DNA of 32,034 nucleotides, taken from assembly GCA_020054035.1 (NCBI GenBank), contig JAGVLY010000024.1, forward strand, positions 1-32,034, written 5' to 3'. Numbering within the stretch: position 1 is the first letter of the stretch; each line of letters begins with the position of its first letter. Origin of the DNA: Bacteroidia bacterium. Lineage in GTDB: Bacteria > Bacteroidota > Bacteroidia > SXHM01. The position numbers were made by a program, and so were the translations under genes. Under the pieces are notes generated by a model. The model saw nothing but the letters and a program-made list of their open reading frames with translations, was not told the origin of the DNA and searched no databases. Shown piece by piece: positions 10,128 through 13,265 of the stretch.

Positions 10128-10193
10128 ACACAAAATGTTGCTAAAAACATATTTTTCCTAATATTGCAGACTTAACTAATCTTAGTTATAATA

Positions 10194-11279
10194 GTGTCCA
10201 ATAAATTAAACTATAAAGCAGTCGATTTCTTCTGTGGGGGTGGTGGGATGAGCTACGGCATGCAGCAAGCAGGAATTGAAGTTCTCGCAGGAATTGATTA
10301 TGAGCCAACTTGTAAGGAGACATATGAAGCAAACATTAAAAACGCTGAATTTATTTTAGCAGATGTTTTCAATTTGTCAGAAAAAAGTCTTCAAAAAAAA
10401 TTAAATCTCAAAAAAAATGACAATGAACTAATTTTAATTGGCTGTAGTCCCTGCCAGTTTTGGAGCATCATCAATACAGACAAAAATAAATCAGAAAAAT
10501 CTAAAAACCTTCTTGTGGAATTTAGACGATTTGTTGAATATCTAAAACCTGGATATGTTGTTGTAGAAAATGTCCCTGGCGTTTTAAGGAAAAAAGAAGA
10601 AAGCGGATTAGCGTCATTCATAAATTGGTTAGAAGAAGAAAGAAACGGCTACAAAGTTCATTTTGATGTTCACAATGTTAGCGAATATGGAGTTGCTCAA
10701 AACAGAAAACGATTTACATTAATTGCAAACAGAGTTTCGAACGAGGAAATAATCCCATTAAAAAAAGCGGGAGAAAAATTGGCTGTAAAAGATGTGATAG
10801 GTACAGAAAATGGTTTTCCACGAATAGATGCAGGACACAAGGATGATAGTGATTTTCTACATACAGTTCCTTCTATTAGTCAAATCAACAAAGAAAGATT
10901 ACGATTAGTAAAAAAAGATGGTGGTAATCGTTTTGGTTTTGCAAAAAATAAAAGACTGCAATTAAAATGTTTTGTTGACAGAGACGATTCTTTCAAAGAC
11001 ACTTTCGGCAGATTATGGTGGAATAAACCTTCTCCAACTATCACAACAAAATTTTCCAGTATTTCAAATGGACGATTTGTTCATCCCGATGAAGACAGAG
11101 CATTGTCCTTGCGAGAAGGTGCATCATTACAATCATTTCCTAAAAGCTATAAATTTTATGGTAGCAGCGTTTCTTCTATTGCACGAATTATCGGCAATGC
11201 TGTTCCGCCTGAATACGCCAAGCAAATTGGTTTAGCAATCTTAACAAACACTAAAAATGCAAGAAGAAGTAAAAAATGA
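10194..11279 (+). CDS. DNA (cytosine-5-)-methyltransferase
   Basis: GTG start. C5-MTase motifs: I DFFCGGGGMSYGMQQAG, IV GCSPCQFWS, VI VVENVPGV, VIII QNRKRFTLIA, IX LSLREGASLQSFP, X RIIGNAVPP. Confidence 0.93.
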   Translation: MSNKLNYKAVDFFCGGGGMSYGMQQAGIEVLAGIDYEPTCKETYEANIKNAEFILADVFNLSEKSLQKKLNLKKNDNELILIGCSPCQFWSIINTDKNKSEKSKNLLVEFRRFVEYLKPGYVVVENVPGVLRKKEESGLASFINWLEEERNGYKVHFDVHNVSEYGVAQNRKRFTLIANRVSNEEIIPLKKAGEKLAVKDVIGTENGFPRIDAGHKDDSDFLHTVPSISQINKERLRLVKKDGGNRFGFAKNKRLQLKCFVDRDDSFKDTFGRLWWNKPSPTITTKFSSISNGRFVHPDEDRALSLREGASLQSFPKSYKFYGSSVSSIARIIGNAVPPEYAKQIGLAILTNTKNARRSKK

Positions 11280-13158
11280 AGTTTTAGAAATGAAGTTTGA
11301 CCCAAATACAATCGAGCATTTGGGCATACATCAATATTCAACTTTACCACCTGTAATTGCAGAATTAGTATCAAACTCCTATGACGCAGAAGCGGAAGCT
11401 GTAACTATTTATTTAGTTGACAATGGAGATAAAGAAATTACCATTGAAGACAATGGGCACGGGATGACCTTTAATGAGATCAACACAAACTTTCTCTTAA
11501 TAGGCAGAAATAGAAGACACAAGGAGGGCAAACAGAAAAGCAAAAATGATAAACGGCTTGTGATTGGCAAAAAGGGAATTGGCAAACTTTCATTCTTTGG
11601 TATTGCGGGAACAATTGAAGTTGAAACTATTCAAAACTATGTTTTAAATAGCTTCAAAATGGACTGGGATGACTTGAAAAAATTTGGAGAAGAAGATAAA
11701 ACATACACTCCAACGATTTTAAAGAAAGATGAAACAGTTGAGAAGAAACAAGGAACTACAATACGTTTAAAAAATATCAAAAGAAAAACCGCATTTCTTC
11801 CTAAGGATTTAGCGTATTCATTATCTAAAACTTTCACAGTATTTGACGAGCCAGACTTTAAGGTTAAAATAATTCACAACAACGAACCAGATAACGCAAC
11901 CGATGTAACTAACTCTCTTAAGTATTCAGGAATTACAAAACTGCATACATGGAAATTTCCAATAGTATTGAATCCAACAGGGTATGAATATGCCGACAAA
12001 ATCAATGGCGAAATTATTGCAGGAGTTGAAACTGTGCCTTCCTCTCTGAAAGGTGTAGCACTATTTTCAAGAGGTAAATTAGTAAACGAGCATAGTTTTT
12101 ATGATTTATCCGCATCAAGTTTTGGATACGATTACATTTCAGGATGGCTAAATGTTGATTTCATTGACGACTGGAAAAAAGAAGTCATTTCCACCAATCG
12201 CAAATCATTGATTTGGGAGGATGATGATGCTTCAAATTTGAAAAATTATTTAGCCTCAATAATTCCAACTTTCTATAACGAACAACGAGAGAAAAGAGAG
12301 GAAAAAGTTTTAGCAGACTTTAAAACTGAAACTGGAGAGGACATTCCTAAATGGTTAGAATCCCTACCATCACACGAAAATAAACTTGCAGACAAAATTG
12401 TCAAGACAATTTTTAAGAGTGAAATTGAATCGGGAAAAAGAGTTGAACTTATCAAATATGTTAAAGACTCTTTTCAATTTGAAGCATTCAAAGAGTTTGC
12501 AAGTGAACTTGAAGACCTTGAGCAAATAGATACAGCAAGTTTAATTCGCTTAATGAAGGAGTGGGAATTAATTGAAGCAAAAGAAATGTGCAAAATCGCT
12601 ATTGGGCGAATAGAAACAATAAACACTTTTGAAAAGCACATCAAAAATAAAGTGAATGAAGTTCCTACAATGAGTGATTTCTTGAAAAAATTCGCTTGGA
12701 TATTAGACCCAAGAATTCAAGAATTTGAAAATGAAATTTACTATTCTCAATTACTGAAAGAGAAGTATGCAGATGACAAGATTGCGTTCAGAGAATATTA
12801 CGAAGCTGAAGCCATAAATAGACGAATTGATTTTTTATGTATGGGGCTTGCAAGTAACTATTTCATAATTGAACTAAAAAAACCAGAGTTTGTAATTCGA
12901 GAAAAAGATATTAGGCAAGCCGCAGATTACAGGTCATTTATTGAATCTCATTTCGGAAACGAGCCACAGACTATAAAATCGGTTGTTGCTTATGTAATTA
13001 CAGGTTCAATAGACGGAGACAGGCTTGCAGTAGCTGCAATGAAAACATACGAAAAGGCTAACGAAGTTTATGTTCGGACATACCACGAACTTTTACGAAA
13101 TGCAAGAAATTATCATACGGAGTTTATTAAAAAGTATGAGCAGACACAGGTAAAGTAA
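11257..13158 (+). CDS. GHKL (MORC/paraMORC-like) ATPase with candidate C-terminal PD-(D/E)xK nuclease-like domain
   Basis: N-box VIAELVSNSYDAEAE, G1 IEDNGHGM, G2 GKKGIGKLSFFG. C-terminal RIDFLCMG...YFIIELKKP (D...ExK pattern). Overlaps the MTase by 23 bp; the alternative start at 11290 (MKFDPNTIEHLGIHQYSTLPP) would leave about 10 bp spacing. Confidence 0.85.
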   Translation: MQEEVKNEVLEMKFDPNTIEHLGIHQYSTLPPVIAELVSNSYDAEAEAVTIYLVDNGDKEITIEDNGHGMTFNEINTNFLLIGRNRRHKEGKQKSKNDKRLVIGKKGIGKLSFFGIAGTIEVETIQNYVLNSFKMDWDDLKKFGEEDKTYTPTILKKDETVEKKQGTTIRLKNIKRKTAFLPKDLAYSLSKTFTVFDEPDFKVKIIHNNEPDNATDVTNSLKYSGITKLHTWKFPIVLNPTGYEYADKINGEIIAGVETVPSSLKGVALFSRGKLVNEHSFYDLSASSFGYDYISGWLNVDFIDDWKKEVISTNRKSLIWEDDDASNLKNYLASIIPTFYNEQREKREEKVLADFKTETGEDIPKWLESLPSHENKLADKIVKTIFKSEIESGKRVELIKYVKDSFQFEAFKEFASELEDLEQIDTASLIRLMKEWELIEAKEMCKIAIGRIETINTFEKHIKNKVNEVPTMSDFLKKFAWILDPRIQEFENEIYYSQLLKEKYADDKIAFREYYEAEAINRRIDFLCMGLASNYFIIELKKPEFVIREKDIRQAADYRSFIESHFGNEPQTIKSVVAYVITGSIDGDRLAVAAMKTYEKANEVYVRTYHELLRNARNYHTEFIKKYEQTQVK

Positions 13159-13265
13159 TTTGCTTTACAAATAAGTTATTTTTTCGTCTTAGATAAACTA
13201 TTTCTTATGTATCTTGCTACATACCAGAGAGTCCAAAATCCTCGTTTATTATATTTAACATTAAA

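Follow-up and report, generated by a model that had tools for sequence, protein, structure and literature searches.

A horizontally acquired two-gene cassette in a Bacteroidia bacterium pairs a C5-cytosine methyltransferase with a predicted GHKL ATPase–Shedu-like nuclease fusion of the BbrUII/HgiDII–paraMORC3 kind

ParaMORC3 proteins join a GHKL ATPase and S5 region to a C-terminal, RecB-like nuclease of the restriction endonuclease fold with an E-D-ExK signature, and are common in Bacteroidetes and proteobacteria (Iyer, Abhiman and Aravind, 2008). Fusions of paraMORC bodies to Ymh domains have also been described in restriction-modification (R-M) neighbourhoods, where an analogy with PrrC and RloC was proposed (Anantharaman, 2013; PMC3710099). 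In the BbrUII/HgiDII group, M.HgiDII is an experimentally characterised methyltransferase (MTase) that forms 5mC in GTCGAC (PMC5867850). VcSduA, which carries a GHKL domain and a Shedu nuclease and has no MTase, restricts phage and needs both its ATPase and its nuclease residues (PMC12137116).

Here we describe two genes, M and R, found in the window, by which we mean the whole 32,034-nucleotide stretch of Bacteroidia bacterium DNA that was analysed (Table 1). Judged by sequence comparison, the pair is a real R-M cassette that looks intact, and it joins the BbrUII/HgiDII–paraMORC3 kind as a new member scoring below the family threshold. The Pfam DNA_methylase profile covers M over its length (E 1.9e-54), and motifs I (DFFCGGGG), IV (GCSPCQ), VI (ENVPG), VIII (QNRKR), IX and X (GNAVPP) are all present, in agreement with an earlier reading of the sequence alone (the sequence-only reading), which had claimed a complete C5 MTase motif set and a coupling overlap between the genes; R indeed starts inside the end of M. 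A search with the Pfam C5 MTase profile found M alone in this ~68% complete genome. The short palindrome AACTAATCTTAGTT lies at positions 10174–10187, just 5′ of the GTG start of M, and is a possible operator or promoter element. An Rfam scan of the window returned no match.

Table 1. Coordinates of the M–R cassette and of the regions discussed in the text (window positions; residue numbers refer to R)
Feature	Position	Strand	Basis
M, C5-cytosine DNA methyltransferase, 361 aa, GTG start	10194..11279	+	Pfam DNA_methylase, motif set
R, GHKL ATPase–S5/clamp–predicted PD-(D/E)xK nuclease fusion, 633 aa, ATG start	11257..13158	+	23 bp overlap with M
GHKL ATP-binding domain of R, residues 31–166	11347..11754	+	HATPase_c_3, E 1.8e-21
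S5-like segment of R, GVALFSRGKLVN, residues 266–277, conserved basic K274	12052..12087	+	Family alignments
Body common to R and Ymh/HEPN-fused relatives, residues 1 to about 385	11257..12411	+	Block identity
Predicted Shedu-like PD-(D/E)xK nuclease domain of R, residues 448–633	12598..13155	+	AF2, SduA 8ps5 match, SduA_C/HSDR_N_2 profiles, invariant residues
Inserted DNA, ~3.1 kb, approximate extent	10128..13258	.	Empty sites in congeners, GC

The GHKL motifs noticed in R from its letters are supported by a profile match and can be placed individually: the N-box at residues 34–44 (E36, N40, D43-A44), G1 at 65–70 (D65-x-G-x-G69-M70), G2 at 104–111 (GKKGIGKL) and G3 at 166–169 (GT at 166). The S5-like region holds a conserved basic motif, SRGKLVN, in a part of the model where AF2 pLDDT falls below 50, and its K274 is a putative lysine finger from what is known of MutL and MORC. 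The full-length AF2 model, built from five sequences, is of low confidence (pLDDT 61), which counts against our preferred explanation as regards clamp and dimer; in Foldseek it matched the N-domains of MutL and Hsp90, and its match to the N-terminal 40 kDa fragment of MutL is suggestive of an S5 fold.

The nuclease fold was instead read from an AF2 model of residues 448–633 alone. A whole-protein Pfam search had given a weak match to the C-terminus (HSDR_N_2, E 1e-3). The domain model, built from ten family sequences, has a pLDDT of 80 and a pTM of 0.78, and places D525 and E539-x-K541 on successive strands followed by a QxxxY helix. Against the PDB, one Foldseek match fell below E 0.001, namely the DNA-bound form of E. 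coli SduA (8ps5), with E 8.4e-5, a probability of 1.00 and a query-length TM-score of 0.40. Lower in the list came FokI, EcoO109I, MspJI and the Shedu protein of B. cereus, and matches to APOBEC and RNA polymerase were treated as noise. The Pfam profile SduA_C was found at E ≤ 0.1 in nine of the ten R family members (best E 8.4e-7) and in R of the window at E 4.5e-4 and 20.9 bits, below the Pfam cut-off of 27. In nine aligned members of the family, with identities as low as 26%, E468, W481-x-L-D-P485, R523-I-D525, E539-x-K541-x-P543 and Q554xxxY558 are invariant, and the C-terminal pattern is therefore not a chance one. The candidate active site comprises E468, D525 (nucleotide 12829) and E539-x-K541 (E539 at nucleotide 12871), plus Q554xxxY558. 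The D...ExK pattern that the sequence-only reading had seen, with its glutamate at nucleotide 12871, is thus confirmed, and the PD-(D/E)xK fold, for which it had proposed structure prediction as a check, is supported by the domain model. By fold and motif, the domain is best read as a predicted Shedu-like PD-(D/E)xK nuclease.

The curated family closest to R is NCBIfam NF050001, “BbrUII/HgiDII family restriction enzyme” (E 1.3e-91), which matches in two stretches covering nearly the full length. The score of 308 bits lies below the curated cut-off of 550, and the closest relatives of R likewise score ~300–315 bits; a function shared with the family is therefore extrapolated, which we count against our preferred explanation. 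PADLOC models for Type II restriction endonucleases (REase_II) match R at about 1e-29, and PHROG 6203, annotated as of unknown function, spans residues 7–630 (E 3.7e-110). The sequences above the NF050001 cut-off include L022, L055 and the P2-like phage L054, to which R is 26–27% identical; compared with the above-cut-off loci L022, L024 and L055, R is ~26–27% and M ~37–38% identical. In the tree, R and four relatives (L016–L019) form a separate clade (UFBoot/SH-aLRT 96/90), nested in a larger one (100/99) that adds L026, L052 and the Ymh fusions. Since R belongs to a well-supported clade of its own, its recognition site probably differs from those of the BbrUII/HgiDII members. The sequence-only reading was right to see a two-gene C5 R-M module with ATPase and nuclease in one polypeptide and no separate classical restriction endonuclease. 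Its view of the arrangement as non-canonical is not supported: NF050001, PADLOC REase_II and paraMORC3 already cover it, and exactly this protein plan had been given for paraMORC3 in the work that the sequence-only reading itself cited (Iyer, Abhiman and Aravind, 2008).

The cassette lies between lhr and a mazG-like gene. The module is missing from six other genomes of the genus, and in four of these the two genes are ~40 bp apart, an empty site that here holds 3.1 kb. The GC content of the insert is 0.336, compared with 0.466 for lhr and 0.429 for mazG and rsmH. No terminal repeats or target duplications of at least 8 bp were found at its ends. The M–R pair has been acquired horizontally as an AT-rich two-gene cassette. 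We considered the upstream lhr helicase as a component of the system and rejected it, as the four congeners without the module keep lhr in place beside mazG/rsmH, which makes it a host core gene.

The M–R gene order is also found in relatives from Bacteroidota, Nitrospirota and an archaeon, and on plasmids. A C5 MTase is immediately adjacent in all seven relatives of the window subfamily with intact flanks, upstream of R in six (L016, L017, L018, L019, L026 and L052) and downstream in one (L053). A Nitrospirales metagenome-assembled genome, Leeuwenhoekiella, Prolixibacter and an Altiarchaeales single-cell genome each have an R relative of 50–52% identity with a C5 MTase directly upstream; relatives of M that adjoin the same type of R are 50–71% identical to it, with the Leeuwenhoekiella enzyme at 71%. 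Members of the R subfamily also stand beside MTases only 25–28% identical to M (L026, L052 and L053), so that specificity between M and R may not be one-to-one, a further point that we count against our preferred explanation. The pair could in principle be chance neighbours, an orphan regulatory methylase next to an unrelated GHKL protein such as a MutL- or Hsp90-like repair factor, and Hsp90 and MutL profiles do match the GHKL domain of R. However, organisms as distant as Nitrospirota, Bacteroidota and an archaeon share the two genes in one and the same order, the pair moves as a single insertion, and R has a nuclease domain that Hsp90 lacks and that resembles SduA most closely in fold. We consider such a coincidence highly improbable.

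More distant relatives of R were found on mobile elements. One is carried by the Acinetobacter wuhouensis plasmid pOXA23_010062 (L052, 4938–6884), where the R-M pair sits directly 3′ of TniB/TniQ-type transposition genes, as if it were Tn7-like cargo on a resistance plasmid. Others occur on a Streptococcus plasmid, beside a HaeIII-type system, and on haloarchaeal plasmids. A BbrUII-type R gene is carried by P2-like phages and prophages (L054, L117–L127). The copy in phage PhiR44_1 is annotated “ParaMORC3” and lies between the portal gene (gpQ) and the replication gene (gpA), where it faces a Dcm gene in convergent orientation. The P2-like R proteins are 75–100% identical in ten IMG/VR contigs, and an eleventh contig (L127) has a frameshifted gene. 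Searched against viral contigs, R of the window has no close relative; only the P2-like BbrUII-type branch of the family has any.

We conclude that M and R probably form a Type II-like R-M system of the paraMORC3 or BbrUII/HgiDII kind, acquired as a two-gene cassette, in which M marks DNA and R cuts DNA that is unmethylated. This conclusion draws on the complete motif sets of M and R, the NF050001 and PADLOC matches, the linkage with a C5 MTase, the nuclease fold and residues, and the clean AT-rich insertion. It also draws on the wider family on plasmids and P2-like phages (“ParaMORC3” with Dcm), the GTCGAC specificity of M.HgiDII and phage restriction by VcSduA. M would methylate cytosine at C5 within a short site and so mark the host DNA. 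R would act as a GHKL dimer whose N-domains and S5/clamp middle may close around DNA when ATP binds; its body would recognise unmethylated target sites, the Shedu-like C-terminal domain would then cut, and methylation would block recognition. From analogy with MutL, other GHKL proteins and VcSduA, we infer that the dimer closes and clamps DNA, that R recognises a site and depends on ATP, and that the system acts in defence.

An alternative is that R is an ATP-gated nuclease like Shedu and VcSduA, which would sense features of phage DNA (ends, tracking or unmethylated DNA) and cut non-specifically, M serving as a self mark or antidote. The nuclease domain of R is closest to SduA, VcSduA has the same plan of GHKL and Shedu nuclease and works without an MTase, and standalone GHKL–SduA_C proteins exist (L037–L039). 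Moreover, the same GHKL body is found with a HEPN RNase-type domain (L031, L032, L035 and L002), where no site-specific DNA cutter would be expected. On the other hand, C5 MTase linkage is consistent in the R subfamily, the curated family nearest to R takes its name from restriction enzymes that have a defined palindromic site, and L037–L039 fall in a separate, distant clade. We regard this alternative as rather unlikely, though it is the strongest competitor to a Type II-like R-M system.

The recognition site was sought through site avoidance. In genome stretches totalling 507 kb (L079–L116), counts of GTCGAC, CCGG, GCCGGC and ACCGGT, and of every palindrome of 4 or 6 bases, gave no convincing module-specific signal; GTCGAC occurs once against 10 expected in the 507 kb, a deficit confounded by a general depletion of TCGA. 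Homology was equally silent on the site, as no methylase of proven specificity is close enough to M. Among loci that have been studied, L051 from Neisseria gonorrhoeae has the methylase nearest to M, and papers on gonococcal R-M systems gave no unambiguous identification, hence no site is claimed, which we likewise count against our preferred explanation.

The strongest avoidance, which dominates these statistics, is that of CGNCG (CG-any-CG), counted 4 times on both strands of the 507 kb sample against 1315 expected, one of the two sites being in a tRNA-Met gene. The motif is absent from the window and from samples of six congeners (L128–L142; 0 against 39–297 expected), unlike CG-N0-CG and CG-N2-6-CG, whose counts are normal. 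As this absence is common to congeners without the module, it is unrelated to the module. In the whole genomes of 60 relatives, we counted GCGGCG against GCGCGG, a control with the same letters. The genome of the window (G000) has 0/577 (GCGGCG/GCGCGG), and GCGGCG is also nearly absent from several other families of the class (G009, 0/395; G012, 1/1109; G014, 3/901; G019, 2/1011; G027, 1/701; G058, 6/1801; G059, 0/331), but not from most. The absence is patchy and all-or-none. The congener G002 is an exception, with 1898/2572 in its whole genome and none in 100 kb of its largest contig. We know of no mechanism for a patchy, all-or-none motif taboo of this sort.

The body of R is shared with proteins that carry a different effector. 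Over residues 1–330, R is 42–46% identical to the GHKL bodies of L031, L032, L035 and L002, comparable to the 44% seen with the nuclease-type relatives L026 and L052. In blocks along the alignment, identity to the Ymh-fused proteins is mostly 22–65% up to residue 320, 15–25% at 321–400, and zero or background past ~400. The C-terminal domain thus switches at residue ~385–400 to a Ymh (HEPN) domain, with PF09509 found in L031 and R-x4-H motifs, such as RNPASH and RHPLQH, in all four. The MTases of L031, L032 and L035 are 46–53% identical to M. The gonococcal locus L051 is a broken module of this type, with a frameshifted methylase in two pieces (65% identical to M), a fragmented GHKL gene with a Ymh (HEPN) C-terminus and then a vsr gene, near comEA/comP-like genes; its sequence record carries no annotation of it. 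Elsewhere, MTases 46–71% identical to M (loci L006, L007 and L042 19–2112; 68–71% at L007 and L042) adjoin longer GHKL proteins of about 700 to over 1000 aa that resemble R in the ATPase domain only; at L042, HATPase_c matches the protein a second time, close to the C-terminus.

By sequence comparison, the C5 methylase and the GHKL domain stay constant, and it is the effector that varies. This suggests, as a hypothesis, that the body senses methylation state. Perhaps, in this clade, the unmethylated site is read by the ATPase clamp rather than by the nuclease, and the effector can be exchanged between a Shedu-like DNA nuclease and a HEPN RNase, both guarded by related C5 methylases, an idea we advance tentatively. 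If true, one methylation-sensing platform could lead either to restriction of DNA or to a response that cuts RNA. It would then provide a simple experimental system for studying how the methylation state of DNA is sensed by GHKL clamps, which is also asked of eukaryotic MORC proteins. The same fusions bear on another explanation, a suicide cassette neutralised by its MTase, in which R would become active in infected or M-losing cells and kill them in the manner of PrrC or RloC. The HEPN-Ymh effectors with R-x4-H motifs on the same body are consistent with this, as is the analogy already proposed for paraMORC-Ymh proteins, but R of the window has a predicted DNA nuclease rather than HEPN, and we find the explanation improbable here.

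Compared with known systems, the cassette shares with the BbrUII/HgiDII family (NF050001) a GHKL N-terminus, a PD-(D/E)xK-type C-terminus and an adjacent C5 MTase, and with paraMORC3 intact GHKL motifs and a fused C-terminal restriction endonuclease fold with E-D-ExK; here the nuclease can be placed more precisely, as Shedu-like. R differs from MORC proper, whose signature GhXhhpXXRhl reads GVALFSRGKLV in R and fits at 10 of 11 positions, with K for R, so that the label “MORC-like” originally given to it should be corrected to paraMORC3-like. MORC proper also has a superfamily II helicase in the same operon in ~70% of neighbourhoods, a criterion that is not absolute; the helicase gene upstream of the cassette, lhr, belongs to the host core. 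Relative to paraMORC-Ymh (PMC3710099), the GHKL body and the C5 MTases are related (MTases 46–65% identical), whereas the C-terminus is a HEPN RNase-type domain there and a predicted DNA nuclease in R. The fusions themselves were already noted in 2013; what is new here, at the level of sequence, is that the boundary of the swap has been measured, on bodies that are closely related and whose methylases are related too. Shedu (SduA) is a stand-alone single gene, whereas R overlaps a C5 MTase gene in an arrangement conserved in its relatives. VcSduA and other GHKL-type Shedu proteins have the same order of GHKL ATPase and Shedu nuclease in one polypeptide; VcSduA works as a single gene without an MTase, whereas R is paired with M, and the GHKL–SduA_C relatives are phylogenetically distant from R. 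With the M–R pair, the GHKL-type restriction enzymes, a poorly characterised group, gain a distinct subfamily that is widely mobile, and the pair joins three literatures, those on BbrUII/HgiDII R-M systems, paraMORC3 and Shedu.
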